From the NCBI GenBank assembly GCA_030262725.1, contig JAJSZS010000013.1:1-58629 (forward strand): 58,629 nt of DNA, read 5' to 3'. The first letter of the stretch is position 1. The number at the start of each line of letters is the position of its first letter. Below, one piece after another: positions 37,227-54,700 of the stretch. Made by a program: the position numbers and the translations under genes. The notes under the pieces were generated by a model. That model worked only from the letters and a program-made list of their open reading frames with translations. It ran no database searches and had not been told where the DNA came from. The DNA comes from Candidatus Desulfofervidus auxilii (GTDB taxonomy: Bacteria; Desulfobacterota; Desulfofervidia; Desulfofervidales; Desulfofervidaceae).

Positions 37227-38429
37227 ATGTCTATTGCAGTTATAGGTGGGGGAATTGCAGGTCTATCTTGTGCTTACTTCCTTAAAAAACAAGGTTTGGA
37301 TGTTGTTGTATATGAAAGAAAAAAAGAAGTAGGAGGTAGATTTTCTACTTTAAAAATTGATGGAGTTTACATTAATCGGGCAGCTTTAATGTTTTCTAAA
37401 AAACTCAATCCATGTTTTACTTCCCTAATTCATGAATTGGGGGTTCCTTATAGAGAAATGGAAAAATCTAAGTTTGTTGTGCAAATTGGTGATAAAATTA
37501 TTCGTTTAAATAAAGAAGGATTGCTGGAAAGTGGATTGTTTAGTTTAGAAGAAATCAAATTATGGGGGGAATTACAGCAATTAGTACAAACACTTAACTT
37601 TGATTATACTGCCCCTGATGAACGCCTTCTTAAATGGCATGATATGTCTCTTTATGATTTTTGTAAAAAAATGAAATTTACTGATAAAATGATAAATTAT
37701 CTTGCCCAACTTTATGCCAGCTTTCAATACGTTGAACCCCATGAGCTAGCAGCAGATAAAGGATTATTTTCTATTGCCTATTCTATTACCCCTACCTTTA
37801 CACCAATAAAAGGCATGGGTGAGGTAGCCATGCAATTAAAGAAAAGATTAGGAGATAGTGTACAAGTAAATACGCATATAACTGAAGTGCGTTATGAGCA
37901 AGGAAAAGGTTTTATGGTAAAAGTAAAAAGAAAAGAAAAGAAAGTAGCTGAATTTGAAGGTTATTATGAGTATTGTGTCTTTGCTACAGGCCAAAGAACA
38001 GTAAAAAACATTATGCCAGAGATAGATTTTAAAGTCCCGGCCGCTAAGACAGTAGGATATATTATAGAAGCTGTTTGTCCACAATATCGTTCATATGAAT
38101 TAATTATCTTTCCTAAAGTAGACAATAAGCATGGTATTCATGGTGGTGAAATGCAGCATTTGCCAGATGGTCGTTCTATTTGTGCTGTTCTTCTTTACCG
38201 CCGTGATGCAGATCTAAGTGCAGTGTTTAAGGAATATAAAATTATTGAACGTCTTGGTTGGTCACCTGCCATTGGAGTCATGCCACCAGGAGGAAAAATT
38301 GTAGATGTGGTCACCAATGTAAAAAATGCCTTTGTTATAGGAGACTTTTATCGTTTCCCAAATCTTGAATCCTGTGTTTATACTGCAAAAAAAGTAGCAA
38401 ATATCATTGCTAAAGAGAAAGCAAGTTAA
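37227..38429 (+). CDS. FAD-dependent oxidoreductase (protoporphyrinogen oxidase/phytoene desaturase-like fold)
   Basis: 400 residues. The dinucleotide site IAVIGGGIAGLSCAYFLKKQ leads into VVYERKKEVGGRFSTL, the pattern of the amine oxidase and phytoene desaturase superfamily. FTPIKGMGEVAMQLKKRLGD near residue 190 and the C-terminal FAD segment NAFVIGDFYRFPNLESCVYT fit the fold. No membrane anchor is visible. The substrate is not predictable. The next gene, a flavin iron-sulfur protein, begins eleven bases later, so the pair may act together in a reduction or desaturation. A link to the polyketide cluster 2.5 kb downstream is possible but not shown. Confidence 0.8.
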   Translation: MSIAVIGGGIAGLSCAYFLKKQGLDVVVYERKKEVGGRFSTLKIDGVYINRAALMFSKKLNPCFTSLIHELGVPYREMEKSKFVVQIGDKIIRLNKEGLLESGLFSLEEIKLWGELQQLVQTLNFDYTAPDERLLKWHDMSLYDFCKKMKFTDKMINYLAQLYASFQYVEPHELAADKGLFSIAYSITPTFTPIKGMGEVAMQLKKRLGDSVQVNTHITEVRYEQGKGFMVKVKRKEKKVAEFEGYYEYCVFATGQRTVKNIMPEIDFKVPAAKTVGYIIEAVCPQYRSYELIIFPKVDNKHGIHGGEMQHLPDGRSICAVLLYRRDADLSAVFKEYKIIERLGWSPAIGVMPPGGKIVDVVTNVKNAFVIGDFYRFPNLESCVYTAKKVANIIAKEKAS

Positions 38430-38440
38430 GGAAATTAGAA

Positions 38441-39166
38441 ATGAAAATATTAGGAATATGTGGAACAAACAAGAGAGGGAATATAAAATCAGCAAGTGAG
38501 TGGTTTTTAAAAAGGGCACTTGAAGCCGCTGAAGAATTAGGGGCAGAAACAGAATTAATTAGGCTTATAAATTATCGCATAAAACCATGCTTAGCATGTA
38601 ATTTCTGCATTTGTGGCAAATTATGTCCTTTGCTTGAAGATCCAAAAGACGATGCAAAAGAAATCTTTGCTAAGATAGATGAAGCAGAGGGCATAATCTT
38701 TTCTTATCCTGTTTATGCATATCAAACACCTGCCATTATTATTAATCTACTTCAAAGAACAAGACCTTTCCATGAACTTGAAAGGGCAAAGGCAACAGGT
38801 TTAAAAATCAAAGCTGCAAAGAACAATCCCTTTTCAGGGAAGGCAATAGGAAATTTAACTGTCGCAGCTGCTATTGGATTGGAAGGAGCCTTATTTGGTC
38901 CACTTCATATTTTAAAAGCCTTAGGAGCAACACCAGTTGCCTGTGCAGGTATTTCCCTTTTAGACCCAGAGATAAAAAATATCTATAGTATAGATGGTAA
39001 ATTTTCTGTCCCAAATGAAAAAATAAAGGCTTTTTTTGATAGGGATTTTCCTAGTTATGAGGAAAATGAATGCGCTATTGACATGGCTCGTGCAGTAGGA
39101 AAATGGGTTTATAGAGCCTGTAAGTCTGAAGTATTCCAGCGCATAAAATACCGGACAAAACTTTAA
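38441..39166 (+). CDS. Flavodoxin-fold NAD(P)H-dependent FMN reductase with cysteine motif
   Basis: 241 residues. It begins KILGICGTNKRGNIKSASEW, the FMN-binding loop of the NADPH-dependent FMN reductase family. CLACNFCICGKLCPL near residue 50 holds five closely spaced cysteines as in iron-sulfur flavoproteins (Isf) of anaerobes. SYPVYAYQTPAIIINLLQRT contacts the flavin ring. Isf proteins pass electrons from ferredoxin to small acceptors. It follows the FAD oxidoreductase by eleven bases and is probably cotranscribed with it. The C-terminus (MARAVGKWVYRACKSE) is helical. Confidence 0.82.
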   Translation: MKILGICGTNKRGNIKSASEWFLKRALEAAEELGAETELIRLINYRIKPCLACNFCICGKLCPLLEDPKDDAKEIFAKIDEAEGIIFSYPVYAYQTPAIIINLLQRTRPFHELERAKATGLKIKAAKNNPFSGKAIGNLTVAAAIGLEGALFGPLHILKALGATPVACAGISLLDPEIKNIYSIDGKFSVPNEKIKAFFDRDFPSYEENECAIDMARAVGKWVYRACKSEVFQRIKYRTKL

Positions 39167-40913: not shown

Positions 40914-42380
40914 ATGAGGATATTATTTGTGATGCCACGTGTAGGTGCTTGGGCTTCTCATGGGATACATAAGGCGCCAAATCAGCTTTATGCTCAGCTT
41001 GGTGCATATTTAAGAGAAAAAAATATTGGTGAAATAAAAGTATTAGATGCACGTGCTTTAGATATGAGTACTGAAGAAATGCTTAAAGAGGTAAAGAAAA
41101 ATAAACCTGATATTGTGATTCTAGGAGATATGGTGCATTCCTATGGTGGATTTGCGGTGATGTGGTATTTCAATGAAACTGCACGCTTGATAAAGGAAAC
41201 TTGTCCAAAGACAAAGATTGTTGTTGGTGGTCTTTGGTATTCTGGATATTTTAAAGAAACCCTTGAACAGAATCCATGGATAGATTTTGTATATGTAGGT
41301 GAGGCAGAGCTTACTGTAGAAGAATTGCTCCTTGCCTTAGATAGTGGACGTAAGGATTTAGAAAATATCCCTGGTCTTGCTTTTAGAAAAGATGGAAAGA
41401 TAGTGCTTGGGCCTCATCGTGAATTGATTAAAGATTTAGATACACTGCCTCTTCCTGCCTATGATCTCTTCCCCATGGATAAATATGTGGGGCATACCTA
41501 TTGGAAACCCTTTGTAGAAATCATCACCTCCCGTGGTTGCCCTAATGCCTGCTCTTTTTGTTATGAATGGAGCCAATTTGATCCACGCACACCAAAGGAC
41601 TTTGTTACTTGGCGGGCTAAGTCTGCCAAAAAGGTAGTAGATGAATTAGAAGTGTTAGAAAAACAATATGGCGTAAAGGTAGTAGTTATTCAGGATGATA
41701 CCTATAATGTGGATTTAAATAGACTAAAAGAGACATGCGATGAGATTTTAAAAAGAAACCTTTCCATAAAATGGGTAATGCTTGGCATAGCAAGAGATTG
41801 GGTAAGGCAAAAGGAGCTTATCCCTTTGATGAAAGAAGCAGGTCTTTTTATGGGTTTGGTAGGAATAGAAGTGGCAAGTGATGAAGAACTGAAGAAAATT
41901 GGTAAAAAAATAACCACTTCTCAGGTAAAAGAAACCATTGATATTTTAAGGGAAAATGACATTGCTACTGTAGGCACATTACTTGTTGGGTTTGAAGATG
42001 ATAATGAAGAGGTAATTAAAAGGAGATGTGCCTTTGCTGATGAAATTGACCCAGACATTATCTGGATAGGTTTTGTTACACCACCTCCTGGCTCACCTAT
42101 CTGGAAAAGCGCTGTTAAAAGAGGATGGATTGACCCCAATCATATAGATTTAAAACTATGGGATTTTCAGCATCCTGTTATGCCTACAAAGTATTTATCT
42201 ATAGAAGATATAGGACGTTTAGCTGCCTGGGGAATAAAGCAGTTTTTTAGCAATCCTAAAAGGATTAAGCGGATTATGGAGAGTAATTATGATCCTTTAG
42301 CTAAACTGTGTTTTAAGGATCAGATAGATAATCTTAGGCGTTTTGAAGGGGCTGCTACAAAAGGAGAAATATTGGTTTAG
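40914..42380 (+). CDS. B12-binding-type radical SAM enzyme, first gene of polyketide cluster
   Basis: 488 residues. The N-terminal 140 residues form a Rossmann-like cobalamin-binding-type domain (LFVMPRVGAW, VLDARALDM, DIVILGDMVHSYGG, IVVGGLWYSGYF), without the DxHxxG base-off motif. The linker ends in DTLPLPAYDLFPMDKY. The radical SAM cluster cysteines are C209, C213 and C216 in RGCPNACSFCYEW. A C-terminal domain of about 90 residues follows the barrel. Such enzymes methylate unactivated carbons or close rings. GGAGG lies five bases before the ATG. The last cluster gene (54712) is its paralogue. Substrate unknown. Confidence 0.88.
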   Translation: MRILFVMPRVGAWASHGIHKAPNQLYAQLGAYLREKNIGEIKVLDARALDMSTEEMLKEVKKNKPDIVILGDMVHSYGGFAVMWYFNETARLIKETCPKTKIVVGGLWYSGYFKETLEQNPWIDFVYVGEAELTVEELLLALDSGRKDLENIPGLAFRKDGKIVLGPHRELIKDLDTLPLPAYDLFPMDKYVGHTYWKPFVEIITSRGCPNACSFCYEWSQFDPRTPKDFVTWRAKSAKKVVDELEVLEKQYGVKVVVIQDDTYNVDLNRLKETCDEILKRNLSIKWVMLGIARDWVRQKELIPLMKEAGLFMGLVGIEVASDEELKKIGKKITTSQVKETIDILRENDIATVGTLLVGFEDDNEEVIKRRCAFADEIDPDIIWIGFVTPPPGSPIWKSAVKRGWIDPNHIDLKLWDFQHPVMPTKYLSIEDIGRLAAWGIKQFFSNPKRIKRIMESNYDPLAKLCFKDQIDNLRRFEGAATKGEILV

Positions 42381-42389
42381 GAGAAAAAA

Positions 42390-44222
42390 ATGTTACCACA
42401 AAGGATTGCCTATTTGAATTTAGATAGATTAGATACCGAGATTGTAGAAATCCCTTTAGAAATAACCAAAAAGTTTTTGGGTGGACGTGGAATAAACATT
42501 TATTTGCTTTATAATCAGGTTACACCTGAAATAAATCCCTTTTCACCAAAAAATCCCCTTATCATTGGTTTAGGACTTTTAACTGGATTAAAGGGCATAG
42601 GTGCTTCTAGATGCAATATTTCTGGAAAATCACCTGAGACAGGTCTTTTAGGAGATGCAAACATAGGAGGCAATTTTGGTGCCTTTATGAAAAAGACAGG
42701 AATTGATTATTTGTTCATTATAGGTGCAGCTAAAGAACCTGTATATATTTATTTGGATGACAAAGGCATTGAAGTAAAGGATGCCAAAGATTTATGGGGA
42801 AAAGACACTATAGAAACTAATACCATTTTAAAAAAACGCTATGGCCCTTCAAGCCAATCTATTTCTATTGGTATTGCTGGTGAAAATTTGGTGCGCTTTG
42901 CCTGCATCATTAATAGGAAAAAAAATGCTGCTGGAAGGACAGGACTTGGCTGTCTTATGGGAGCAAAAAAGATAAAGGCAATTGTGGTAAATGGTAAAAA
43001 ATCAATAAAGCCAAAGGATGAGAATGGATTTAATGATTTATTAAAATTTCTTCAAAAAAGGCTAAAAGAAGAGCCTTTAGTCAATGTACTCAGTGAATTT
43101 GGCACTGCCCATCTTTTTAAACTGATTAATCAAAAGATTGGTATGGGAAGAGTCCATAATGGGCTTTCTATGAAATTTGATAATAAAGATATCTCACCTG
43201 AGGTATTAAAAGAAAAATATTACAAAGGGAAGGCAGGCTGTTTTTCCTGTCCAGTAACCTGTCAGCATAGATACAAAACAGAAAAAATAAGCAATGAAGG
43301 GCCAGAATATACTATCTTAGCAAGTTTTGGTCCGGTTTTGGGCATAAAAAGATTAGAAACAATCCTTTATATAAATAATTTAATAAATCGCTATGGTCTA
43401 GATGCCAGTTCAACATCAAATCTTATTGCCTGGTCTATTGAATTATTTAAAAAGGGTGTCATTGATGAAAAATTAACAAATGGGCTAAAGCTTGATTGGG
43501 GAAATGAAGAAGCTATTATAGAGTTAATCCATCAGATTGCCCATAGAGATGGATTTGGCAATCTTTTAGCAGATGGTGCAAAGGAAGCTATAAAAAAATT
43601 AGGTGAAGGAACAGCTAAATATCTTATCTGGACAAAATATTTACCTCAATCAGACCCTGTAGATTTAAGATATCTTCCTGCCTATGCCCTAGGAAATGCT
43701 GTTGCTTCAAGGGGCTCTGACCATTTAAGAAGTCGCCCTACTTGGGAGGCCTATGGTCTTTCTGAAGAACAATTAAAAGCCATTTATGGTGGGTATGTCT
43801 CTGCTAATCCACATAGTTATGAAGGGAAGGGTAGGGTTATTTGGTGGTGGGAAACATATCTTTCTTTATTTGATGCTTTAGGACTCTGTAAACTTATTGC
43901 CTTTCATTGTCGTCCTGGTCTGTTTAATTTTGAATTTTTCTCAAAACTTATTCACTATGCTACTGGTCTTGATTTAACACCTGAAGAAATCTTTGAAATA
44001 GGAGAAAGAATTGTCACCTTAGAAAGGATGTTTATTGTGCGCGAGGGAATAAGAAGAAAAGATGATTTTCCACCACAAAGGTATTTTGAACCCTTAAATG
44101 GATTAAGGCTAGATAAAGAAAAATTTGAGCAAATGCTAGATGAATATTATCAGCTCCGTGGCTTTGATAAAGAAGGTAAGCCTTTAGAAGAGACAATAAA
44201 ACGTTTGGGTTTAAGTCAATGA
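42390..44222 (+). CDS. Aldehyde:ferredoxin oxidoreductase-family tungstoenzyme
   Basis: 610 residues, standard size. It has KKFLGGRGINIYLLYNQV, GIGASRCNISGKSPETGLLG and DANIGGNFGAFMKKTGID at the cofactor-binding end. The [4Fe-4S] cysteines are at C284, C287, C291 and C500 (GCFSCPVTCQHR and LGLCKLIAF). RYLPAYALGNAVASRGSDHL is the second pterin motif. The family interconverts aldehydes and carboxylic acids with ferredoxin; the BamB relatives reduce aromatic rings. Within this polyketide operon it could reduce a released acid or handle an aryl aldehyde. GAGAA precedes the start, ten bases after the radical SAM gene. Confidence 0.88.
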   Translation: MLPQRIAYLNLDRLDTEIVEIPLEITKKFLGGRGINIYLLYNQVTPEINPFSPKNPLIIGLGLLTGLKGIGASRCNISGKSPETGLLGDANIGGNFGAFMKKTGIDYLFIIGAAKEPVYIYLDDKGIEVKDAKDLWGKDTIETNTILKKRYGPSSQSISIGIAGENLVRFACIINRKKNAAGRTGLGCLMGAKKIKAIVVNGKKSIKPKDENGFNDLLKFLQKRLKEEPLVNVLSEFGTAHLFKLINQKIGMGRVHNGLSMKFDNKDISPEVLKEKYYKGKAGCFSCPVTCQHRYKTEKISNEGPEYTILASFGPVLGIKRLETILYINNLINRYGLDASSTSNLIAWSIELFKKGVIDEKLTNGLKLDWGNEEAIIELIHQIAHRDGFGNLLADGAKEAIKKLGEGTAKYLIWTKYLPQSDPVDLRYLPAYALGNAVASRGSDHLRSRPTWEAYGLSEEQLKAIYGGYVSANPHSYEGKGRVIWWWETYLSLFDALGLCKLIAFHCRPGLFNFEFFSKLIHYATGLDLTPEEIFEIGERIVTLERMFIVREGIRRKDDFPPQRYFEPLNGLRLDKEKFEQMLDEYYQLRGFDKEGKPLEETIKRLGLSQ

Positions 44223-45205
44223 AAATAGCTATTATTGGTGCAGGGGCAATAGGCGGTTTAGTCGCTGGTTATCTTAGTAAAGAAGGGATTGATATTACCT
44301 TAATTGGTAAGAAAAAGGATGTTTTAGCGATTAAAGAAAATGGGCTTTTTATAGAAGGGGTAAGAGGAAAATTGGTTATTCCAATTAATGTTGAAGATAA
44401 ATTAAAAAATAATGCAGACTTTATTATTTTGGCTATTAAAACACAAGATATCCCTTCAGTCTTAAACGATATCCCAAAAAATATCCCCATCCTTACAGTA
44501 CAAAATGGTGTAAGGGCAGAAGAAATTCTTTCAAACTATATCCCAAAAGAAAAGATTATCGGAAGTGTTGTTATGTTTGGGGCAACATATCTTTCTCCAG
44601 GAAAGATTTTACATAACTTTGAAGGAGATTGGATTATTGGTAAGGCATTTTCTAAAAATGATGAAGAAGTGGAAAAATTAGCAAATCTTTTAAATAAGGC
44701 ATTTTCTATCCATATTACAGAAGAAATAAAAGAAATGAAATGGTTAAAACTCTTTTTAAACCTAAATAATTGTCTTCCTGCCTTAATCGGAAAGAGCATG
44801 CAAGAGACATTTTCTGACTTAGAGATTTGTAAATTAAGTATTCGTCTTTTAAAAGAAGCATTAACAGTAATTGATAAGGCAGGAATCAAATTAAAATCTC
44901 TACCAGATTTCCCTTTAGAAAGGCTTTATGCATTGACAAATATGCCATTAGAAGAATCAGCAAGAATATTCTCAAACATTATGAAAAATTTAAGTAAAGA
45001 ACCACTTTATGGCTCAATCCTTCAAAGCATAAAGAGAAAAAGACCTTCAGAGATTGATTATATCAATGGAGAGATAGCCTCTTTGAGTGAAAAGATAGGG
45101 ATAGACGCACCTTTAAATAAAAAAGTAGTAGAGATGGTGCATGCAGTAGAAAAAAGAGGTGAATTTTTTAAGTCAGAAGAAATTTTAAATGAATTTAGGA
45201 GGTAA
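44219..45205 (+). CDS. 2-dehydropantoate 2-reductase-like ketoacid reductase
   Basis: 328 residues. The NADPH site is KIAIIGAGAIGGLVAGYLSK; NADFIILAIKTQDIPSVLND and TVQNGVRAEEILSNYI follow. The catalytic lysine lies in EMKWLKLFLNLNNCLPAL. The C-terminal RKRPSEIDYINGEIASLSEK and IGIDAPLNKKVVEMV complete the PanE/ApbA pattern. The classical enzyme makes pantoate for coenzyme A. Placement in the polyketide operon (four-base overlap with the oxidoreductase, two bases before the TIGR04076-like gene) suggests reduction of a pathway ketoacid, or pantetheine supply for the carrier protein. The former is my preference. Confidence 0.82.
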   Translation: MKIAIIGAGAIGGLVAGYLSKEGIDITLIGKKKDVLAIKENGLFIEGVRGKLVIPINVEDKLKNNADFIILAIKTQDIPSVLNDIPKNIPILTVQNGVRAEEILSNYIPKEKIIGSVVMFGATYLSPGKILHNFEGDWIIGKAFSKNDEEVEKLANLLNKAFSIHITEEIKEMKWLKLFLNLNNCLPALIGKSMQETFSDLEICKLSIRLLKEALTVIDKAGIKLKSLPDFPLERLYALTNMPLEESARIFSNIMKNLSKEPLYGSILQSIKRKRPSEIDYINGEIASLSEKIGIDAPLNKKVVEMVHAVEKRGEFFKSEEILNEFRR

Positions 45206-45207
45206 AG

Positions 45208-45780
45208 ATGGAATTAAAGTTTCCGCAATTTTTAGTGACAGTAACAAAGGTAAGGGGAGAATGTTATCGGGGTTATAAAGTAGGAGATAAATTTATCTTT
45301 GAAGATTTTACTAAAACTCCTGAAGGTTTTTGTCAAGGTGCAGCAACAGTCATATTCCCCTGTCTTTATGCATTAACCTTTGGGGCAGAATTTCCATTTG
45401 AAGAAAATCCTCGTTCTATCCATACAAGTTGTCCTGATGGAGGAAGGGTAGAGTTTTTTACTCAGGTGCTGACTGAAACAGGCGAAATAGAAATAAGGGA
45501 AAAAAAAGAACAATCTGGACCAAAACCAAAGAAGATGATTATTAGCATAGAAGAAGTAAGGGGAAAGTGTTTTTATGGTTATAAAGTAGGGGATGAAATC
45601 GAAGTCATTGGACTTAGAACACCAAAGGATTTTTGTGGAGGGGCTTATAATGCCCTTTTCCCTGTGCTTTTTGCCTTAAATTTTGGGGCAAAATTCCCAT
45701 TTGAAGATGAAAATGCCAATGCCAGGGTAACCTGTCCAGATAATGCAAATATTAGGTTCAAGGTAAGGAGGGTGGAATAA
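45208..45780 (+). CDS. Tandem TIGR04076-like protein, unknown function
   Basis: 190 residues made of two homologous halves. Both share VRGxCyxGYKVGD, then an FC-x-GA segment, a (P-x-LyAL)xFGAxFPFE stretch and a final CPD near the end (residues 6-93 and 109-188). This corresponds to the small TIGR04076 domain, usually present once. Each half keeps three cysteines at matching places (in RGxC, FCxGA and CPD), suggesting a metal or disulfide role. No function is known for the family. It starts two bases after the reductase stop with a GGAGG site, clearly part of the operon. Confidence 0.7.
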   Translation: MELKFPQFLVTVTKVRGECYRGYKVGDKFIFEDFTKTPEGFCQGAATVIFPCLYALTFGAEFPFEENPRSIHTSCPDGGRVEFFTQVLTETGEIEIREKKEQSGPKPKKMIISIEEVRGKCFYGYKVGDEIEVIGLRTPKDFCGGAYNALFPVLFALNFGAKFPFEDENANARVTCPDNANIRFKVRRVE

Positions 45781-45782: not shown

Positions 45783-47045
45783 ATGAAAAAACGAGTGGTT
45801 GTTACAGGGATAGGTGTTCTTTCCCCCAATGGTATTGGTAAAGAGGCATTCTTTGAAGGTATGGTCTATGGCAAATCAGCAATAAGAAAGGTAACTGATT
45901 TTGATGTCTCTCAATTTCATTCCCAGATTGCGGCTCAGATAAAAGATTTTGACCCATTTTACTTTGGGCTTACCAAAGAAGAAGTAGAAAGGATGGATCG
46001 CTATGTGCAATTTGCTGTAGCTTGTGTAGAGATGGCTATAGAAGATGCAAAGCTGCTTTTAAATAAAGAGGAAAAAGAAAGGATTGGAGTTTGTTTAGCC
46101 AATGCTATCTGTGGCACAAGATATATGGAAGAAGAATTTTTAAGGGTAACAAATTTTGGAAAGGAACCTATTGATCCAAGGAAAGCAAGACCATTCCTTT
46201 ATGATGCCTCTATGTTTAATACTCCCTCAAGCGAAATAGCATCACGTTACAAGTTAAAGGGTATTTGCACAACAGTTTCTACTGGATGTACAGCAGGCAC
46301 AGATGCTGTAGGTTTTGCTTATGAAGCCATTCAAAATGGAGAGGCAGATATTATGATTACAGGGGCAGCAGAAGCACCACTTTGCCCTATTACCTTTGCT
46401 GCTTTTGATGTTTTAAATGTCATTTCTTCTAGAAATGATGAACCTGAGAAGGCTTCAAGACCATTTGATAAGGAAAGGGATGGATTTGTGCTCTCAGAAG
46501 GATGCGGCATTTTAATATTAGAGGAGTTAAATCATGCCTTAAAGCGAGGTGCACATATCTATTGTGAAATCACTGGTTTTGGCACCTGTTGTAATGCCTA
46601 TCATATGACAGATTTACCAGAAGATGGTGATGCTATGGCTGCTTGTATAAATTTTACTTTAAAAGACGCAAAATTACCTCCTGAATCAATTGATTATATA
46701 AATGCCCATGGAAGTTCTACTAAACAAAATGATGTCTTTGAAACAAATGCCTATAAAAAGGTCTTTGGTAAAAATGCTTATAAAATTCCTATAAGTTCTC
46801 TTAAATCTATGATTGGTCATCCTTTAGCTGCTGCCAATAGTATAGAGCTTGTCGCCTGTGCCTTGGTCTTTGAAAGAGACATTTTACCACCTACGATAAA
46901 TCAAGAAGTGCCTGATCCAGTATGTGATTTGGATTATATTGCAAATAAAGCAAGAGAAAAAAGGGTCAATCATATTCTTAAAACTAGTAGTGGTTTCTCT
47001 GGCATTCATTCTTCTATGATATTGAGCAGATGGAACTCAAGATGA
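45783..47045 (+). CDS. Beta-ketoacyl synthase, active KS-alpha of a type II polyketide synthase
   Basis: 420 residues. The thiolase fold opens KKRVVVTGIGVLSPNGIGKE. The catalytic triad is intact: C169 (VSTGCTAGTDAVGFAYEAI), H309 (NAHGSSTKQND) and H346 (SMIGHPLAAANS), with K341 before the last. RPFDKERDGFVLSEGCGILI is also typical. FabF is its nearest common relative, but the paired, catalytically dead partner gene downstream, sharing an ATGA junction, makes it a KS-alpha. It would extend a malonyl chain on the carrier protein. No acyltransferase is in the operon, so malonyl loading likely uses FabD from fatty acid synthesis. Confidence 0.9.
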   Translation: MKKRVVVTGIGVLSPNGIGKEAFFEGMVYGKSAIRKVTDFDVSQFHSQIAAQIKDFDPFYFGLTKEEVERMDRYVQFAVACVEMAIEDAKLLLNKEEKERIGVCLANAICGTRYMEEEFLRVTNFGKEPIDPRKARPFLYDASMFNTPSSEIASRYKLKGICTTVSTGCTAGTDAVGFAYEAIQNGEADIMITGAAEAPLCPITFAAFDVLNVISSRNDEPEKASRPFDKERDGFVLSEGCGILILEELNHALKRGAHIYCEITGFGTCCNAYHMTDLPEDGDAMAACINFTLKDAKLPPESIDYINAHGSSTKQNDVFETNAYKKVFGKNAYKIPISSLKSMIGHPLAAANSIELVACALVFERDILPPTINQEVPDPVCDLDYIANKAREKRVNHILKTSSGFSGIHSSMILSRWNSR

Positions 47046-48241
47046 AAGTAGCGATTACAGGAATAGGCATTGTTGCTCCTCCTGGTGTTTGTAAAGAAGA
47101 TTTTTGGCAAAATGTTAAAGCAGGAAAATCCTTTATTTCTCCTATTACAAGGTTTGATGCCTCAAAATATCCCTCACAGGTAGCAGGTCAGATTGAGAAT
47201 TTAAATACAAATCCTATCCCTCGTCGTCTTTTAAAAAAGATAGATAAGTTTTCTATCTTTGCCTTAATTGCTACAGAGCAAGCAATAAAAGATGCATCTT
47301 TAAATTTAGCCAAAGAAGATCCTTATAATATAGGTATCTTTATAGGGAATGCCTTAGGAGGATGGCTTTATGCTGAGACAGAATTACGTGACCTCTATGT
47401 AGAAGGAAGGGATGGTGTAAGTCCATATCTAGCTAGTGCCTGGTTTCCAGCTGCCCCTCAAGGTCAGATCTCTATTTTTTATGGGATAAAAGGATATAGC
47501 AAAACAGTAGTTGCAGATAGGGCAAGTGCCTTAATGGCTATTGGTTATGCAGCAAAGGTTATTGAGAATAAAAAATTAAATATTGCCTTTGCTGGTGGCA
47601 CAGAGGCACCAGTTACTCCTTATGCTTTACTTTGTTGTAGCACAGAAGGTTCACTTTCAAAAGGTCTTTATCGTCCATTTGATAAAGAGAGGGATGGTTT
47701 TGTTGTAGGTGAGGGGGCAGGAATTTTGGTCTTAGAAGATGTAGAACATGCCTTAAAAAGAGGAGCAAATATCTATGGATTTATTACAGGTTATGGAAGT
47801 TTTTGTGATGGTGTTGACCGTATCATGCCAGATCCAAATGGCAAAGGGCTTATAAAGGCAATAAAGGCTGCTTTAGATATGGCAGGTTATAAGCCTACAG
47901 ACATTGATTATATCTGTGCTGATGGAGTGGGAACAAAGTTAGGGGATATAAGTGAAACAAGGGCAATAAAAGAGGTTTTTGGAAAAAAGATACCTGTTAG
48001 TGCGCCAAAGACTATGTTTGGTTATCTGCTTGGGGCTGCTGGTGCTGTTGATGTAATTATTGCCCTTTTGGCTATGCAAGAGGGTATTATCCCTCCAACC
48101 ATAAATTATCAAACAAAAGATCCAGAATGTGATTTGGATTATGTGCCTAATAAAAGTCGCCCTAAAGAGGTTAAAAGGGCACTTATTATCTCAAGGGGTA
48201 GAGGAGGTATAAATGCTGTTTTAACTATAGAAAGGGGGTGA
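47042..48241 (+). CDS. Ketosynthase-like chain-length factor (KS-beta), catalytic residues lost
   Basis: 399 residues from ATG 47042, which overlaps the KS-alpha stop as ATGA; ATG 47030 is an alternative. It aligns along its whole length with the upstream ketosynthase (KVAITGIGIVAPPGVCKEDF and RPFDKERDGFVVGEGAGILV). But the nucleophile is R160 (VVADRASALMAIGYA), the first histidine is D294 (CADGVGTKLGD) and the second is Y328 (TMFGYLLGAAGAV). Loss of all three residues is what a chain-length factor shows; actinobacterial ones usually carry glutamine at the first site, here arginine. It should dimerise with KS-alpha and set chain length. Confidence 0.88.
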   Translation: MKVAITGIGIVAPPGVCKEDFWQNVKAGKSFISPITRFDASKYPSQVAGQIENLNTNPIPRRLLKKIDKFSIFALIATEQAIKDASLNLAKEDPYNIGIFIGNALGGWLYAETELRDLYVEGRDGVSPYLASAWFPAAPQGQISIFYGIKGYSKTVVADRASALMAIGYAAKVIENKKLNIAFAGGTEAPVTPYALLCCSTEGSLSKGLYRPFDKERDGFVVGEGAGILVLEDVEHALKRGANIYGFITGYGSFCDGVDRIMPDPNGKGLIKAIKAALDMAGYKPTDIDYICADGVGTKLGDISETRAIKEVFGKKIPVSAPKTMFGYLLGAAGAVDVIIALLAMQEGIIPPTINYQTKDPECDLDYVPNKSRPKEVKRALIISRGRGGINAVLTIERG

Positions 48242-48245: not shown

Positions 48246-48482
48246 ATGGGAAATATCGAAGAAAGGGTAAAGAAATTGTTTGTTAAATTGTTTGACATGA
48301 AACCAGAAGAGGTTAATTTAGAAGCAAATCTAAATGATGATCTTGGGATGGATTCTACAGAAATAGTAGAGCTTACTGTAGCATTAGAGAAGGAGTTTAA
48401 GATTAATATTGAAGATGGTGAGATTAAAAAAAGACATTGTGTAAGTGATGTTGTAAATATTGTGAAGAATAGAATCAAATGA
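48246..48482 (+). CDS. Acyl carrier protein of the polyketide synthase
   Basis: 78 residues. Four-helix carrier with phosphopantetheine serine S37 in NDDLGMDSTEIVELTVALEK, and acidic helix II, as in ACPs. It begins four bases after the chain-length factor gene stops, with an AGGGGG ribosome site. It completes the minimal type II polyketide synthase (KS-alpha, KS-beta, ACP). No dedicated phosphopantetheinyl transferase is in the window. It is unlikely to be the housekeeping AcpP because DSxE context and neighbours differ from fatty acid operons. Confidence 0.93.
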   Translation: MGNIEERVKKLFVKLFDMKPEEVNLEANLNDDLGMDSTEIVELTVALEKEFKINIEDGEIKKRHCVSDVVNIVKNRIK

Positions 48483-49285
48483 AGATTATAGATTTAAGTC
48501 TCCCTATAGATGATAGTGTTTTTGAGCCTCTTAAAGTAGAGATAAAGAGATGGGGGCATAAAAGGGGTGGGGATCGATTTGGTTTGAGATGGGCTCTTTC
48601 CAAAGGAATAAAGGGCATTTTAAATTATATTTTAGGTAAAGAAAGGATTACACATTCTTCTTTTAAAGATGGTGCTTTTTTAGCTTTAGAACAAGTAAAG
48701 GCAACAGTGCATACAGGGACTCATCTTGATGCCCCATATCATTTTGGCCCTAAAACTCAAGGAAAGAGGGCAAAAAGGATAGAGGAAATTCCCTTAGAAT
48801 GGTGTTATGGTAATGGTGTTGTTTTAGACCTTTCTCATAAAAGACCAGGAGAATTTATTACAAAAGAAGATATAAAAGAGGCAATTAAAAAAATAGGATA
48901 TGAAATAAAACCCTTTGACATTGTGTTAATTCGTACAGGGGCAGATAGATTTTTTGGGACAAAAAAATATTTTTCCCATTTTCCAGGAATGAGTAAAGAA
49001 GCAGTCGCTTATATTTTAGGATTTAATGTAAAGGTTATTGGGATTGATGCCTTTAGTTTTGACCGTCCTTTTCATGTGATGATAAGAGATTTTTTAAAAA
49101 CAAAGGATAACAGTTATCTTTGGCCTGCCCATTTTTATGGAAGGGAAAAAGAATATTGTCATATAGAGAGATTGGCTAATTTAGATAAGATTCCAAAACC
49201 TTATGGTTTTAAAGTAGTTTGTTTTCCTATAAAGATAAAAAATGCAAGTGCAGCCTGGGTAAGGGCTGTAGCGATTATTGAATAA
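48479..49285 (+). CDS. Putative polyketide cyclase / kynurenine formamidase-fold protein
   Basis: 268 residues. PF04199-type fold: it begins KIIDLSLPIDDSVFEPLKVE and carries the metal motif HTGTHLDAPYHFGPKTQG near residue 79. PFDIVLIRTGADRFFG and VIGIDAFSFDRPFHVMIRDF are typical C-terminal segments. The family holds formamidases and proteins described as cyclases of aromatic polyketide pathways. Position directly after the ACP (four-base overlap) supports a cyclase or thioester-handling role. A metal-dependent hydrolase that releases the chain is the alternative. Confidence 0.78.
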   Translation: MKIIDLSLPIDDSVFEPLKVEIKRWGHKRGGDRFGLRWALSKGIKGILNYILGKERITHSSFKDGAFLALEQVKATVHTGTHLDAPYHFGPKTQGKRAKRIEEIPLEWCYGNGVVLDLSHKRPGEFITKEDIKEAIKKIGYEIKPFDIVLIRTGADRFFGTKKYFSHFPGMSKEAVAYILGFNVKVIGIDAFSFDRPFHVMIRDFLKTKDNSYLWPAHFYGREKEYCHIERLANLDKIPKPYGFKVVCFPIKIKNASAAWVRAVAIIE

Positions 49286-49298
49286 AAAGGAGGAAAAA

Positions 49299-49739
49299 AT
49301 GGGACACACAGTAAATTCTATTTTAATTAAAGCACCTTATGATTTGGTATTTGATATTTCAAATGACATTGAAAGGTGGACAGAATTATTTGGTGGTGAA
49401 TACAAGGAGGCAAAGATATTAAAAAGGGAAGGGAATAAAATTACATTTCAATTAACTGATAATAGAGGAAATTCCTGGCAATCCTTTCGCCTCTTATTTA
49501 AAGATTATTACTTTACTTATGCCCAGAGAGTAGAGCCTCTATTTCCTTTTAAATACATGAAGATTATTTGGCTTTATACCCCTATGCCTGAAGGGATACT
49601 TATGACTTGGATTCAAGACTTTTCTATGGAAGAGGGGGCAAAATTTAATGATAAACAGGTTGAAGAATTTATTAATAAACATTCAAGGGAAAATTTAAAG
49701 ATATTTAAAGAAGTGATAGAGAAAGAGGCAAAGAAATGA
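49299..49739 (+). CDS. SRPBCC-fold aromatase/cyclase-like protein
   Basis: 146 residues from ATG 49299, supported by AAGGAGG at 49287-49293; an in-frame TTG at 49278 would overlap the previous gene. It starts GHTVNSILIKAPYDLVFDIS and NDIERWTELFGGEYKEAKIL, the common opening of START-like polyketide cyclases (TcmN/WhiE type). The strand pattern WQSFRLLFKDYYFTYAQRVE, MKIIWLYTPMPEG and a final helix fit. These fold and aromatise polyketide chains without cofactor. It shares a four-base overlap with the reductase gene downstream. Confidence 0.82.
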   Translation: MGHTVNSILIKAPYDLVFDISNDIERWTELFGGEYKEAKILKREGNKITFQLTDNRGNSWQSFRLLFKDYYFTYAQRVEPLFPFKYMKIIWLYTPMPEGILMTWIQDFSMEEGAKFNDKQVEEFINKHSRENLKIFKEVIEKEAKK

Positions 49740-50509
49740 ATGGATTAAAGGGGAAAACAGTTATTATCATAGGGGCAACTGGTGGGATTGGTAAGGCGAT
49801 TGCAGAAACATTGGCAAAAGAGGGGATGAATTTAGTGATTGCTGCCCGTAATAAAGAAATGCTTGAAAAAATAGCAAATGAATTTTCTAAAAAATATAAG
49901 ATAAAGACATTGCCTGTACCCTGTGATATTACAAAACAAGCTGATTTAGAAAATCTGGTAAATGTGGCGATTAAAGAATTTAAAAAGATAGATGCATTAA
50001 TCAATAGTGCTGGTATTAGCAGTCAATATCCATTTCAAGAACAACCATTAGAAGACATCCCAAGGCTTATATATACGAATTATTTTGGTCCAGTAATGCT
50101 TACACGTTTAATTATTAATCATTTTATAAAAAATAAAGCTGGAGCTATTATAAACATTGTCTCTGGCTCCACCTTAGTAGACCCCCCACCAAGAAACTTT
50201 ATTGTCTATACCTCGCTTAAACAGGCATTAAGGGCTTTTGGAAAGGGACTTTTTTGGGAATTAAGGGATTTTAATATAAAAGTGACATCAATTTTACCTG
50301 GTGTAACAGATACAGCTTTAACCCAAGGATTAAAGGACATTTCTGTGGATAAATCTCGTCTTATGGGCACAAAAGCAATAGAGGATGCAGTGAAGTTTGC
50401 GCTTTCTGTACCGGCAAATGTCTGTCCTTTGGAGATTTCAGTGATTAATCAGCGTACACCTTGGACAAAACCTGTCATTCCATATAAGCAGGAGCATCCA
50501 AAAAAATGA
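49736..50509 (+). CDS. Short-chain dehydrogenase/reductase (polyketide ketoreductase candidate)
   Basis: 257 residues. NAD(P) site KTVIIIGATGGIGKAIAETL, the NAG segment DALINSAGISSQYPFQ, the catalytic serine in NIVSGSTLVDPPPRNF and Y158-K162 in YTSLKQALRAFGKGL. It therefore has a complete catalytic set. In type II pathways such a reductase sets one carbonyl to an alcohol before cyclisation. Its position between the SRPBCC cyclase and the amidohydrolase (four-base overlaps on both sides) supports a role on the nascent chain. Family name alone does not fix the substrate. Confidence 0.86.
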   Translation: MNGLKGKTVIIIGATGGIGKAIAETLAKEGMNLVIAARNKEMLEKIANEFSKKYKIKTLPVPCDITKQADLENLVNVAIKEFKKIDALINSAGISSQYPFQEQPLEDIPRLIYTNYFGPVMLTRLIINHFIKNKAGAIINIVSGSTLVDPPPRNFIVYTSLKQALRAFGKGLFWELRDFNIKVTSILPGVTDTALTQGLKDISVDKSRLMGTKAIEDAVKFALSVPANVCPLEISVINQRTPWTKPVIPYKQEHPKK

Positions 50510-51405
50510 TATTTGACGCCCACACCCACTGGCTACCAAAAAAAATTATTGAAAATGCCCATTTTTTCTCAAATATTTGGGGAGATATTGAAAAACAAAT
50601 AGAAGTAATGGATAAATTCAAGATTGATAAAGCACTTCTTATTTATCCTACTACTGATGCCTATAAAAAGTTGGGTTTTAAAGAAGTAGCTAGAGTTTAT
50701 AATGATGCTATCGCTGAAATAATAAATAAATACCCTGAAAGATTTATTGGGGCAGCTATTCTGCCTATAGATAAAAAAGAAATGATTGAAGAATTTGAAC
50801 GTATTAAAAAATTAGGATTTAAAGCTATTTCTTTAGCAACAAGCTTTGATGGCATATATTTAGATGATGAGAGGTTTTATCCTCTTTATGAAAGATTAGA
50901 GGCATTAAACATGCCTATTTTTGTTCATCCCCAGATTATAAATCCCATAGGTTATGAAAGAATAAAAGACCCTTTACTTACCCCTGTCATTGAATTTGTG
51001 TTTGATACTACAATGTGCATTGGAAAGTTGATAGTAGCAGGCATATTTAAAAAGTTTAAAGATTTAAAATTTATCTTTGCCCATTTAGGAGGGGTAATGC
51101 CCTTTATCAAAGAGAGGTTTGATATCATATATAAAATGCTTAGAAAGAGAAATATAGTTAAAGACATCTTTGCTATGCCTAGTGAATATTTAAAAAAACT
51201 CATTGTAGATACAAGTGGGACTACATCTCATTCTGCCCTTATGTGCACGATTGAGATGGTAGGGACAGATCATATTTTATGGGGGAGCGATTACCCAGGT
51301 AATCCTGATATATCCAATTCAATCAAGGCTATAAAAAGATTAAATATTTCTGAAGAAGAAAAGAAAAAGATATTAGGAGAGAATATAAAAAGATTGTTAA
51401 AATGA
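50506..51405 (+). CDS. Amidohydrolase-2 family (ACMSD-like) hydrolase or decarboxylase
   Basis: 299 residues. The metal-binding DAHTHW (H6, H8) sits at the N-terminus; FKAISLATSFDGIYLDDERF, MPIFVHPQIINP, FIFAHLGGVMPF and the metal aspartate in HILWGSDYPGNPDISNSIKA follow in the family order. The subgroup includes aminocarboxymuconate semialdehyde decarboxylase and resorcylate decarboxylases that remove an aryl carboxyl group without oxygen. In an aromatic polyketide operon decarboxylation of the terminal carboxylate is plausible. It overlaps both neighbours by four bases. Confidence 0.82.
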   Translation: MIFDAHTHWLPKKIIENAHFFSNIWGDIEKQIEVMDKFKIDKALLIYPTTDAYKKLGFKEVARVYNDAIAEIINKYPERFIGAAILPIDKKEMIEEFERIKKLGFKAISLATSFDGIYLDDERFYPLYERLEALNMPIFVHPQIINPIGYERIKDPLLTPVIEFVFDTTMCIGKLIVAGIFKKFKDLKFIFAHLGGVMPFIKERFDIIYKMLRKRNIVKDIFAMPSEYLKKLIVDTSGTTSHSALMCTIEMVGTDHILWGSDYPGNPDISNSIKAIKRLNISEEEKKKILGENIKRLLK

Positions 51406-52304
51406 AAGGATTGATTTTCAACATTCAACGTTATTCTATCCAAGATGGTCCAGGTATTAGAACAACTGTGTTTATGAAAGGATGTCCTTTAAAGTGTATA
51501 TGGTGTGCTAATCCAGAAGGGCAAAAACCTGTGCCTGAGATTCTTTATGATAAAAATAAATGTAATAAATGCTATAAATGTGTGGATGCCTGTTTAAATG
51601 GTGCTATTAGTATTTTTCAAGATGGATTTATTGACATTAATCGGCGTATGTGTAAAAGATGTAAAAATTATTCTTGTATAGATGCATGTGAAGAAGAAGC
51701 AATTAAATTAGTGGGAAGATTTGTTACTATAGAAGAATTAATGCAAGAAGTAGAAAAAGATAGTTTATTTTATCGCAATTCTAATGGTGGGGTAACTTTA
51801 TCTGGGGGAGAGCCAACAAAACAGTTTGAATTTATTTTAGAGTTTTTTAAAAATTGTAAAGAAAAAGGCATCCACACCACATTAGATACATGTGGTTATA
51901 CATCATGGGATTTTTTAAAAAGGATTTTAGAATATACCGACTTGGTTCTATATGACATTAAACATATTGATCCTGAAAAACATAAAAAATTAACAGGTGT
52001 TTCTAATGAGATTATTTTAAATAATGCAAAAAATTTATTAAGTGCCAAAGTGCCAACTATTTTTAGAATACCTATTATCCCAGGATATAACGATGAAAAA
52101 GAAAATATTGAAGCCACAGCAAGATTTTTAAAAGAAATTGGAGGGAAAGAGGTAAATCTCCTTCCTTATCATAGATTAGGTATAAGAAAATATGAAAGAC
52201 TTGGGATAAATTATCCTTTAAAGATTAAATCACCTAATAAAAAATCCCTTGAGGAGATAAAAACAATTTTTGAAGAAAAAGGATTAAAATGCATAATAAT
52301 ATAA
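51402..52304 (+). CDS. Glycyl radical enzyme activase (radical SAM)
   Basis: 300 residues. It begins GLIFNIQRYSIQDGPGIRTT with the SAM cluster cysteines C28, C32 and C35 in KGCPLKCIWC. A ferredoxin-like insert follows (CNKCYKCVDACLNGAI and CKRCKNYSCIDACEEEAI) with sites for two further [4Fe-4S] clusters. VTLSGGEPTKQFEFILEF and RIPIIPGYND are typical. It abstracts hydrogen from the glycine of its partner enzyme, whose gene overlaps by sixteen bases. The two-cluster insert is usual in activases of the non-PFL type glycyl radical enzymes. Confidence 0.95.
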   Translation: MKGLIFNIQRYSIQDGPGIRTTVFMKGCPLKCIWCANPEGQKPVPEILYDKNKCNKCYKCVDACLNGAISIFQDGFIDINRRMCKRCKNYSCIDACEEEAIKLVGRFVTIEELMQEVEKDSLFYRNSNGGVTLSGGEPTKQFEFILEFFKNCKEKGIHTTLDTCGYTSWDFLKRILEYTDLVLYDIKHIDPEKHKKLTGVSNEIILNNAKNLLSAKVPTIFRIPIIPGYNDEKENIEATARFLKEIGGKEVNLLPYHRLGIRKYERLGINYPLKIKSPNKKSLEEIKTIFEEKGLKCIII

Positions 52305-54700
52305 GGCTTCCTTACATAAAGCATATTGTTCCCATAGAGGCTATTTTAACAGAAAGGATAAAAAGGATAAAAGAAAAAATCAGAAAAACACCTGTTCATG
52401 GGGATTGGGAAAGGGATCATATTTTTACTGAATATTGGCGGCAATCTGATGGTGAGCAGATTTATATAAGGCGAGCAAAGGCATTTTATAAGGTATTAAA
52501 AGAAAAAAGCATAAGGATTTTTGATGATGAACTCATTGTAGGAGCACCGACAAAGTATCTTTCTGGAGGTGCATTTTATCCAGAATATAGCTGTGATTGG
52601 ATAGAGGAAGAATGGGATAAATTTGCTTCAAGAGAAGGTAAGTTTGTTCCAGTTGGAGATAAAGAGACTGTATTGAAAGATATTGAATTTTGGAAAGGGA
52701 AAACTTTATTTGATAGGCAATTAACTTTTTTCTCTGAGAAATGGAATCTTTTGCAAAATCTTTTTATCTCAAGGATCACTGCAGGTGACAGACCCTCTGC
52801 ACATGGACGTCAAATAGTAGATTTTAAAAAAGTATTAAATAAGGGATTAAAGGGTATTATTTCAGAAATAAAGCAAATGAAAGAAAAAACACCTTTAAAT
52901 ACCACAGAGGATTTAAATAAGCATTATTTCTGGGATGCCTGTATCATTGCTTGTGAAGCAGTGATTAATTTTGCCAAAAGACATGCTGAATTAGCGAGAG
53001 AAATGGTGAAAAATGAAAAAAATAAAGAAAGAAAAAAAGAATTGGAGAAGATTGCAGAGATTTGTTCAAAAGTGCCTGAAAATCCAGCCAATTCATTTTA
53101 TGAAGCCTTGCAATCACTATGGTTTATCCACTTATGTGTAGAGATAGAAAATAACTCATTTGGTTATTCTTTAGGTAGGATGGATCAATATTTATATCCT
53201 TTTTATAAAAAAAGCATAGATGAAGGAGAAATTACAAGGGAAAAGGCAGCCGAATTATTGGCTTGTTTATGGCTTAAATTTAATACCATCCATTGGATAA
53301 CAAAGTATTCCATAGCAGCCATTACCCAAACAAGCAATTTCCAAAATGTCACTATAGGAGGAAGAGATAATAAAGGTAGGGATGCAAGTAATGAATTATC
53401 TCATCTTATCGTAGAGGTTGATACAGCCTTAAAATTACCACAACCAACACTTTCTCTTAGGTATCATGACTGCATAAATGAAGTGTTTTTATTTAAATGC
53501 GCTGAAGATATTGCTACAGGTGGAGGAAAGCCTGCTATTTTTTGTGAGAATTATGCATATTCTGTTTTGCCTTTATATGGGGTGCCATTAGAAGATGTAA
53601 TTGAGTTTGCCCCTATTGGATGTGTAGAGATGGGTATACCTGGAAAAACATCCCTATTTGCTGGCTGTTTTATTAGTCTTCCCCATTGCCTTGAATTGGT
53701 CTTTACAAATGGCATTCATAGAAAGACTGGAAAAAAGATAGGTATAGAAACAGGAGATGTTGAAACATTTTTAAGCTTTAATGATTTTATAAATGCATTT
53801 TTTAAACAATTTGAATTTATCCATCATATTATTGTAAGTTATTTTAAAATTAGTCAGGTAGCTATAAGACCATACTTTGTCCCTTGTCTATTTAACTCAA
53901 GTTTGATTTCTGATTGTATTATTAAAGGAAAGGATCTTCATAGTGGTGGGGCAAGATATAATCAATTTTTTGCTACATATCCCGTAGGAATGGTAACAAC
54001 AGTAAATTCACTTTATGCTGTGAAAAAGTTAGTATATGAAGAAAAAAAGATTAGCATGAAGGAACTTAAAGAGGCATTAGAGAAAAATTTTGAAGGAGAA
54101 TACCGTAAAATAAGAAAAATTTGTTTAGAAGTGCCTAAGTATGGGAATGATATTGATGAAGTGGATGATATGCTTGGGGATTTATTTAAAGAAATTAGCA
54201 AGATTGTAATGAAAGAAAAAAATGCCTTTAATCATCCTATAGCCCCTGCTTATCTTGGTGTGACTGCCCATTATTTTCATGGAATAGGCTGTGGGGCTAC
54301 ACCTGATGGGCGTTTAGCCTATACTCCTTTTGCAGATGGTTCTTTATCTGCCTACCCTGGTACAGATAAAAATGGACCAACAGCACTTATAAAATCAGCA
54401 ACAAAGGCAAATACTTCTCCTGCAGTAGCTACGCTTTTTAATATAAAATTGAATCCTTCTATTTTTAAATCAGCAGAGGGAATGAGAAAATTTTTAAGTC
54501 TTGTTAAGACCTATTCTGATTTAGGTGGTTATCATATCCAGTTTAATGTCATTGATAAAGAAACATTATTAAAGGCAAAAAAGTATCCTGAAAGGTATAG
54601 AGATTTATTAATCAGAGTGGCAGGATTTAGTGCCTATTTTGTAGATTTATCACCTACTGTTCAGGATGAGATTATTGCAAGAACAGAACATAATTTTTAA
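52289..54700 (+). CDS. Glycyl radical enzyme of the dehydratase/decarboxylase/lyase branch
   Basis: 803 residues. The radical glycine is G779 in LLIRVAGFSAYFVDLSPTVQ. The thiyl cysteine is C445 in FAPIGCVEMGIPGKTS, followed two residues later by glutamate E447. Pyruvate formate-lyase has paired cysteines here, whereas C-x-E is seen in glycerol and diol dehydratases, choline lyase and arylacetate decarboxylases. So this enzyme removes, eliminates or decarboxylates something, not formate. The neighbouring activase and PKS genes indicate a substrate from the polyketide pathway; carboxylate loss from an arylacetate is one option. It overlaps the activase by sixteen bases. Confidence 0.93.
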   Translation: MHNNIRLPYIKHIVPIEAILTERIKRIKEKIRKTPVHGDWERDHIFTEYWRQSDGEQIYIRRAKAFYKVLKEKSIRIFDDELIVGAPTKYLSGGAFYPEYSCDWIEEEWDKFASREGKFVPVGDKETVLKDIEFWKGKTLFDRQLTFFSEKWNLLQNLFISRITAGDRPSAHGRQIVDFKKVLNKGLKGIISEIKQMKEKTPLNTTEDLNKHYFWDACIIACEAVINFAKRHAELAREMVKNEKNKERKKELEKIAEICSKVPENPANSFYEALQSLWFIHLCVEIENNSFGYSLGRMDQYLYPFYKKSIDEGEITREKAAELLACLWLKFNTIHWITKYSIAAITQTSNFQNVTIGGRDNKGRDASNELSHLIVEVDTALKLPQPTLSLRYHDCINEVFLFKCAEDIATGGGKPAIFCENYAYSVLPLYGVPLEDVIEFAPIGCVEMGIPGKTSLFAGCFISLPHCLELVFTNGIHRKTGKKIGIETGDVETFLSFNDFINAFFKQFEFIHHIIVSYFKISQVAIRPYFVPCLFNSSLISDCIIKGKDLHSGGARYNQFFATYPVGMVTTVNSLYAVKKLVYEEKKISMKELKEALEKNFEGEYRKIRKICLEVPKYGNDIDEVDDMLGDLFKEISKIVMKEKNAFNHPIAPAYLGVTAHYFHGIGCGATPDGRLAYTPFADGSLSAYPGTDKNGPTALIKSATKANTSPAVATLFNIKLNPSIFKSAEGMRKFLSLVKTYSDLGGYHIQFNVIDKETLLKAKKYPERYRDLLIRVAGFSAYFVDLSPTVQDEIIARTEHNF

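Follow-up and report, generated by a model that had tools for sequence, protein, structure and literature searches.

The 58,629-nt stretch analysed here (the window; contig JAJSZS010000013.1 of Candidatus Desulfofervidus auxilii, assembly GCA_030262725.1, genome G000 in our set) carries an operon of 14 plus-strand genes separated by gaps of −16 to +11 bp, which opens and closes with a B12-type radical S-adenosylmethionine (SAM) enzyme. An earlier note on this DNA had placed these two genes, here named rSAM1 and rSAM2, as the first and last of the cluster, and its gene limits hold exactly. The domain order that the two share is B12-binding, then radical SAM: in both proteins PF04055 (73.7 bits in rSAM1 and 80.6 in rSAM2, cut-off 29.5) lies C-terminal to PF02310 (42.6 and a marginal 32.4 bits, cut-off 32.1). 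The pairwise alignment that the note had proposed gives a full-length match well above chance (42% identity, 62% positives, E 9e-128). Both proteins contain the CxxxCxxC motif of class 1 cobalamin-dependent radical SAM enzymes, and a literal search found the DxHxxG cobalamin motif in neither, as the note had said; a displaced DxxHxxG is present in rSAM1 (D72-H75-G78), with none in rSAM2. Alignment also shows a deletion of 6–7 residues just N-terminal to CxxxCxxC in rSAM2 compared to both rSAM1 and rSAM3, a third paralogue encoded elsewhere in the same genome (contig C2) and far nearer to rSAM2.

Its gene content makes the operon a complete type II polyketide synthase (PKS) cluster, with ketosynthase (KS), chain length factor (CLF), acyl carrier protein (ACP), aromatase and ketoreductase (KR) genes (Table 1). 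The best PDB match of KS-alpha is 6smo (399 bits), which we take to be AntD of the Photorhabdus anthraquinone pathway, followed by the actinorhodin KS (394 bits) and FabF (367 bits). Its active-site Cys and His are invariant in 55 of 55 homologues, whereas in the homologues of the adjacent KS-beta the Cys is replaced by Arg or Lys (60/60) and the His by Asp (60/60), the mark of a CLF; the ACP is discrete and the aromatase of WhiE/TcmN type. Because the aromatase and the aryl-acid decarboxylase-like protein match such enzymes, an aromatic, decarboxylated polyketide would be the expected product. Pfam domain scans of the operon proteins matched no O2-dependent oxygenase family. The accessible parts of the descriptions of the anthraquinone and actinorhodin systems and of DauA/B mention no anaerobic tailoring of the kind predicted here, in which a pair of B12-type radical SAM proteins is combined with both a glycyl radical enzyme (GRE) and an aldehyde:ferredoxin oxidoreductase (AFOR). 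DauA/B, the KS/CLF pair of Ca. Desulfofervidus auxilii and thus from the sister genus, was tried in E. coli and is not among the soluble pairs (PMC6638757). A catalogue of type II PKSs includes Omnitrophica and deltaproteobacterial CLFs, and its main text does not mention radical SAM enzymes (PMC10132072).

Table 1 Genes and residues of the operon and its upstream neighbours, in window positions.
Feature	Position	Strand	Basis or remark
FAD amine-oxidase/desaturase-like, probable cluster member	37227..38429	+	Pfam; adjoins FMN reductase and rSAM1 in G038
NADPH-dependent FMN reductase/flavodoxin-like, possible electron donor, probable cluster member	38441..39166	+	Pfam; next to rSAM1 in G038 and L042
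rSAM1, B12-binding/radical SAM, BchE-like, 488 aa, first gene	40914..42380	+	PF02310 and PF04055
His75 codon of rSAM1, candidate lower-face cobalamin residue	41136..41138	+	loop after beta-strand 3
CPNACSFC, [4Fe-4S] motif of rSAM1, residues 209-216	41538..41561	+	Cys invariant in 84/84
AFOR (AFOR_N and AFOR_C)	42390..44222	+	Pfam domains
Ketopantoate-reductase-like (ApbA/PanE)	44219..45205	+	domain match; conserved in Omnitrophota PKS loci
TIGR04076 protein, double repeat	45208..45780	+	TIGR04076; conserved in PKS loci
KS-alpha, active Cys169/His309	45783..47045	+	PDB matches; invariant Cys and His
KS-beta/CLF, Cys to Arg, His to Asp	47030..48241	+	homologues; KS-alpha alignment
ACP, 78 aa, GMDSTE	48246..48482	+	homologue in L024, 59%
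PF04199 putative cyclase	48479..49285	+	Pfam
SRPBCC aromatase/cyclase, WhiE ORFVI/TcmN type	49278..49739	+	3tvr/3tl1/2rer, E 1e-26 to 2.5e-27
Short-chain dehydrogenase/reductase (SDR), KR-like	49736..50509	+	Pfam
Amidohydro_2 aryl-acid decarboxylase-like (5-carboxyvanillate decarboxylase/ACMSD type)	50506..51405	+	4icm, E 2.3e-29
GRE activase (radical SAM)	51402..52304	+	TIGR02494, 373.6 bits, cut-off 174
GRE, Gly motif RVAGFSA 776, GCVE 444	52289..54700	+	domain and motif matches
rSAM2, B12-binding/radical SAM, 479 aa, last gene	54712..56151	+	PF02310 and PF04055
Gln76 codon of rSAM2, counterpart of rSAM1 His75	54937..54939	+	alignment
CPNGCRFC of rSAM2, residues 203-210	55318..55341	+	motif search

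We scanned 84,980 GTDB species genomes for relatives of rSAM1 and obtained 300, examining the loci of the best 80. These best 80 of 300 are nearly all from Omnitrophota and 55–64% identical to rSAM1, and in at least 62 the gene sits in a PKS locus with the same partner set, often between CLF and ACP. In Omnitrophota, and in some Desulfobacterota, the rSAM1 family goes with the PKS locus. Across 145 Omnitrophota genomes, 35 encode both rSAM1 and CLF, 4 rSAM1 only, 2 CLF only and 104 neither (Fisher p 1e-26, a statistic that ignores relatedness). This co-occurrence, a result whose success was not built in, is our strongest evidence and argues that rSAM1 acts on the polyketide. Three of the four rSAM1-only cases can be accounted for, two being members of the rSAM3 operon described below and one (G422) apparently a truncated PKS contig (L112). 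Where an rSAM1-like gene stands apart, as in nine Omnitrophota genomes, eight still encode a CLF elsewhere (58–64% identical); Velamenicoccus, with no such CLF, is the sole exception.

Several further relatives were seen. The Omnitrophota rSAM1-like genes outside PKS loci at L044, L045 and L087, including that of Velamenicoccus, share a common neighbourhood, which at L044 holds complex-I/Mrp-antiporter/hydrogenase-like genes. A distant B12-type radical SAM gene (25% identical to rSAM1) lies within an Omnitrophota PKS cluster (L048 13125-14576), and about ten different ones, 23–33% identical to rSAM1, are clustered at L037 (G011 C111:31001-51000). Viral contigs yielded only relatives of 26–29% identity.

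The bracketing genes had been taken for duplicated enzymes, a view that our data contradict. rSAM2 is 70% identical to rSAM3 and 42% to rSAM1, so that rSAM1 and rSAM2 are not each other's nearest relatives, and local tandem or in-situ duplication of rSAM1 into rSAM2 is ruled out by this identity pattern, by the tree and by an approximately unbiased (AU) test, which rejects sister copies (p 8e-88). In the tree, rSAM1 and its kin form one clade (support 100/100), and rSAM2, rSAM3 and the second enzymes of Omnitrophota loci form another (95/97), in which rSAM2 is nested within the rSAM3 group of its order (group 99/99; with the rSAM3 of G136 100/99). The BchE sequences are monophyletic (100/100) and lie outside both clades. 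A first tree had long-branch outgroups; leaving most of these out of a second tree did not alter the two clades. The positions of HpnR, HpnJ and the L037 genes relative to BchE are not settled by the trees. An rSAM3-like gene is present in 6/6 genomes of the order examined, while CLF occurs only in G000 and in G038, from the sister genus. As placed by the phylogeny, rSAM2 is a descendant of the rSAM3 family, core to the order, and was recruited separately.

The rSAM3 operon (L023) encodes an MMPL transporter, a nucleoside phosphorylase, an MtnA-like isomerase in two open reading frames (ORFs), a class II aldolase-SCP2 protein, an aldehyde dehydrogenase, LolA-like and DUF1302 proteins and an acyl-CoA ligase. 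Operons of this type without a PKS are conserved in Desulfofervidales and Omnitrophota (L023 7712-19711; L159, L160, L162, L163), and perhaps make an exported lipid.

The two-enzyme bracket itself recurs. In Omnitrophota genomes G421 and G298 rSAM1 is the first gene of the PKS locus and a second enzyme, located behind the amidohydrolase, is the last; G437 has the same layout, pieced together from two contigs. These second enzymes are ~50% identical to rSAM1 and group with rSAM3-operon proteins (90/75), not with the rSAM2 of the window. A single origin of the second-bracket enzymes was rejected (p 1e-5 when the G004 enzyme is left out, 1e-44 when it is included), although the groups were picked after viewing the tree and the p values are indicative. 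On the tree, then, the bracket evolved at least twice, an rSAM3-type enzyme having been recruited on two occasions to the end of such a cluster. This supports the suggestion that both bracket enzymes act in one pathway and on one product, though on other grounds than those of the earlier note: the three Omnitrophota genomes share the layout, with a second enzyme independently recruited.

Putative salvage genes also accompany the family. A phosphorylase, an MtnA-like isomerase and a class II aldolase adjoin rSAM1 or rSAM3 in many genomes, and such genes stand alongside rSAM1 in 45 of 62 PKS loci and in none of 17 non-PKS loci (an 18th, L057, ends at a contig edge). The set resembles the DHAP (dihydroxyacetone phosphate) shunt and 5-deoxyribose disposal systems (MtnP-MtnA-Ald2, DrdKIA), in which a phosphorylase or a nucleosidase/kinase, an isomerase and an aldolase yield DHAP and acetaldehyde (PMC10986504, PMC6079011). 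It differs from them in its split isomerase (ORFs of 301 and 152 aa at L023), in an aldolase that carries an SCP2 sterol-transfer domain at its C terminus (L023 13558-14526; L025 14546-15532) and in its sub-cut-off scores. 5'-deoxyadenosine, the presumed substrate, is a known inhibitor of radical SAM enzymes (PMC8102628).

The activase, GRE and rSAM2 genes are joined to the operon by overlaps of 4 and 16 bp and a gap of 11 bp. The nearest solved enzymes to the GRE are a PFL-like enzyme and glycerol/diol dehydratases; the Asp aligned with Asp447, which we take to be the relevant glycerol dehydratase residue, is not kept, however, and no substrate is assigned. Upstream, the functional cluster probably starts at 37227, because amine-oxidase-like and FMN-reductase-like genes immediately precede rSAM1 in the close relative G038. 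There the FMN-reductase gene and rSAM1 are ~50 bp apart. In the window, the interval 39921-40456 between these genes holds a 96-aa ORF and then the start of a PIN/VapC-like toxin frame (MKYLLDTHTVLWSLF...), soon broken, which looks like a decayed toxin-antitoxin pair. An Rfam scan of the window matched two tRNAs only, with no SAM or cobalamin riboswitch upstream of the operon, and promoter and terminator scans were uninformative, promoter-like sites being rarer than in shuffles.

AlphaFold2 models (mean predicted local distance difference test scores of 93.5 for rSAM1 and 90.6 for rSAM2) show a Rossmann domain and a radical SAM barrel. Foldseek matches both to AprD4 (which we take to be a diol dehydratase acting without cobalamin), MgmA, TsrM, OxsB, CysS and TokK (E 1e-18 to 1e-27), all of the same two-domain fold but only 15–19% identical and in other gene contexts. 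Strand 3 of the rSAM1 model comprises residues 67–72, and the following loop holds His75, which is His in 84/84 family members; the position of rSAM2 Gln76 is Gln in 13 and His in 5 of the 18 members of its clade. Class 1 enzymes place a residue from the loop after strand 3 below the cobalt (Asn186 in OxsB, Arg69 in TsrM; PMC13331322), and by the topology of the model His75 is a candidate equivalent. Given the His75/Gln76 difference and the deletion before the CxxxCxxC motif, the surroundings of the cobalt and the substrate pocket are probably not the same in rSAM1 and rSAM2. All seven above-cut-off PF02310 domains in G000 sit at radical SAM ORFs, and most of the B12 used in the lineage may therefore go to these enzymes. 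The Desulfofervidus lineage is thought to need little B12, and the related Ca. Desulfofervidus auxilii HotSeep-1, which lives as a partner of thermophilic methane-oxidising archaea, retains genes for cobamide salvage (PMC10553843).

The phylogeny called for in the earlier note bears out one half of its expectation: rSAM1 and rSAM2 belong, by their sequences, to one BchE-like superfamily, but they fall into two well-supported separate clades, neither of which is BchE, HpnJ or HpnR. BchE (TIGR02026) is the best NCBIfam for rSAM1, rSAM2, rSAM3 and one second-bracket enzyme alike, with HpnJ (TIGR03471; 173.3 bits for rSAM1 and 119.1 for rSAM2, cut-off 577.6) second for rSAM1. HpnR (TIGR04367, cut-off 650) and the ladderane family (TIGR04072, cut-off 360) give 122.8 and 94.0 bits with rSAM1 and 92.4 and 101.3 with rSAM2. 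HpnJ, HpnR and the ladderane enzymes are of the same superfamily and have lipid substrates. Curated cut-offs and trees rule out membership of BchE, HpnJ and HpnR, and the curated cut-off rules out the ladderane family. BchE shares the B12-binding and radical SAM layout and works without O2, converting a carbon next to the macrocycle into a ketone with oxygen from water and closing a ring under anoxia (PMC13142503); unlike the window proteins, it shows no GDxxH/Q loop following strand 3 when aligned with them. The bacteriochlorophyll neighbourhood is absent at rSAM1 and rSAM2, which stand in a polyketide operon instead, as do their relatives.

We tentatively favour, at a little below an even chance, a joint reading in which rSAM1 carries out an O2-independent oxidation of the polyketide and the separately recruited rSAM2 adds a second radical step. 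By homology, the minimal PKS (KS, CLF and ACP) would build a poly-beta-ketone, which the KR, the WhiE/TcmN-type aromatase and the PF04199 cyclase would fold into a polycyclic phenol, and the amidohydrolase would strip the ring carboxylate. rSAM1 would then split SAM to give a 5'-deoxyadenosyl radical and, with cobalamin, oxidise the aromatic polyketide, most likely as in BchE, by inserting a water-derived oxygen at a benzylic or ring position. Aerobic type II pathways often employ an O2-dependent oxygenase to oxidise an anthrone-like carbon, and rSAM1 would take over this role. The released 5'-deoxyadenosine would be cleared by the phosphorylase, MtnA-like isomerase, class II aldolase and aldehyde dehydrogenase set, PKS-linked in other genomes and supplied by the rSAM3 operon in this one. 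rSAM2, recruited in this lineage together with the GRE and its activase, would act on the same product, its membership of the pathway being likely. Oxidation by rSAM1 is preferred because BchE is the nearest curated family, no O2-dependent oxygenase family was matched in the operon and salvage genes accompany the family. A wider claim, which we hold to be possible though doubtful, is that rSAM1 defines a family of 'anaerobic polyketide oxygenases' of the B12 radical SAM type, which would use water-derived oxygen on aromatic polyketides in place of O2-dependent enzymes. The family would be present in about a quarter of Omnitrophota species and in bacterial partners of thermophilic methane-oxidising archaea, with a 5'-deoxyadenosine disposal route in many clusters.

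Several points weigh against this reading. The BchE scores (244.2 bits for rSAM1, 203.5 for rSAM2) lie far below the cut-off of 481.35, and neither enzyme falls in the BchE clade. Cobalamin binding by rSAM1 and rSAM2 is a prediction from sequence and model, and the salvage proteins tested score below the NCBIfam curated cut-offs, though the domains are present. Among the B12 radical SAM enzymes that have been characterised, methylases are in the majority, and the nearest solved folds mix methylases (MgmA, TsrM, CysS, TokK) with non-methylases (AprD4, OxsB). 5'-deoxyadenosine is set free by methylases too, which means that the salvage genes are no specific sign of oxidation, and no feature examined separates oxidation from methylation. 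In G038 the PKS operon ends at the amidohydrolase, with neither GRE nor rSAM2, and given such an operon rSAM2 could serve another pathway.

Methylation ranks second among the readings, although we think it rather unlikely. rSAM1, and rSAM2 with it, would be class-B C-methyltransferases that pass the methyl group of methylcobalamin to an unactivated carbon after hydrogen abstraction, giving two methylations, one of the options raised in the earlier note. The four methylases among the fold neighbours favour this, as does the difference between rSAM1 and rSAM2 in the residue expected to face cobalt, which also varies among known members (PMC13331322). However, the non-methylating BchE gives the best family score by a wide margin for every member tested, HpnJ is also named a non-methylase (PMC13142503), and at the loci we noticed no gene for recycling S-adenosylhomocysteine, only salvage of the 5'-deoxyadenosine type.

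Still less probable, in our judgement, is that rSAM2 and the GRE form a separate module that happens to lie downstream, leaving rSAM1 alone in polyketide synthesis. Besides the shorter G038 operon, it would explain why G004 has rSAM2, activase and GRE together on a separate short contig in a different gene order, and why a GRE-rSAM2 fragment occurs in G023, a genome of another family in which no rSAM1 or close CLF was detected. That fragment (L009, G023 C27; 3.35 kb) is 98% identical to the window's GRE and 93% to its rSAM2, and is either a recent transfer or a mis-binned contig. Yet the overlaps and the short gap described above tie rSAM2 and the GRE into the operon, the full-length close GRE carriers, the window genome and G004 (71%), both encode the PKS, and the bracket recurs independently in Omnitrophota.

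Formation of carbon-carbon bonds, by ring closure or by biaryl or dimer coupling of phenols, is improbable: BchE closes its ring E and PbsB cross-links two aromatic (tyrosine) residues (PMC13142503), and the predicted substrates are polyphenols, but the operon already has ring-closing cyclases (PF04199, SRPBCC) and no sequence feature specific to coupling. That the enzymes use no cobalamin, the N-terminal domain being a relic as in AprD4, the top structural match of rSAM1, we consider equally improbable, since against the barely sufficient PF02310 score of rSAM2 stand the clear score of rSAM1, its invariant His75, the confinement of all seven PF02310 domains of G000 to radical SAM ORFs and the cobamide salvage genes kept by HotSeep-1 (PMC10553843).

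Taken singly, the superfamily, the salvage pathway and the presence of type II PKSs in these phyla are already known; in a mainly non-subscription literature we found no report of the conserved union of this distinct radical SAM family with an anaerobic type II PKS, of its link to salvage or of a second enzyme having been recruited more than once. The familiar type II polyketides are those of aerobes, in which O2-using oxygenases shape much of the final chemistry. The clusters described here represent a widely conserved version put together from anaerobic parts, with two B12-type radical SAM enzymes, an AFOR and a GRE in the window operon. If rSAM1 does oxidise the polyketide in the way we favour, the system would be a direct test case for aromatic polyketide oxidation without O2 and would give BchE-like chemistry, in which the role of cobalamin is poorly understood, a second physiological setting. 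In the Desulfofervidus lineage, in turn, the cobamide salvage genes would have an evident purpose.
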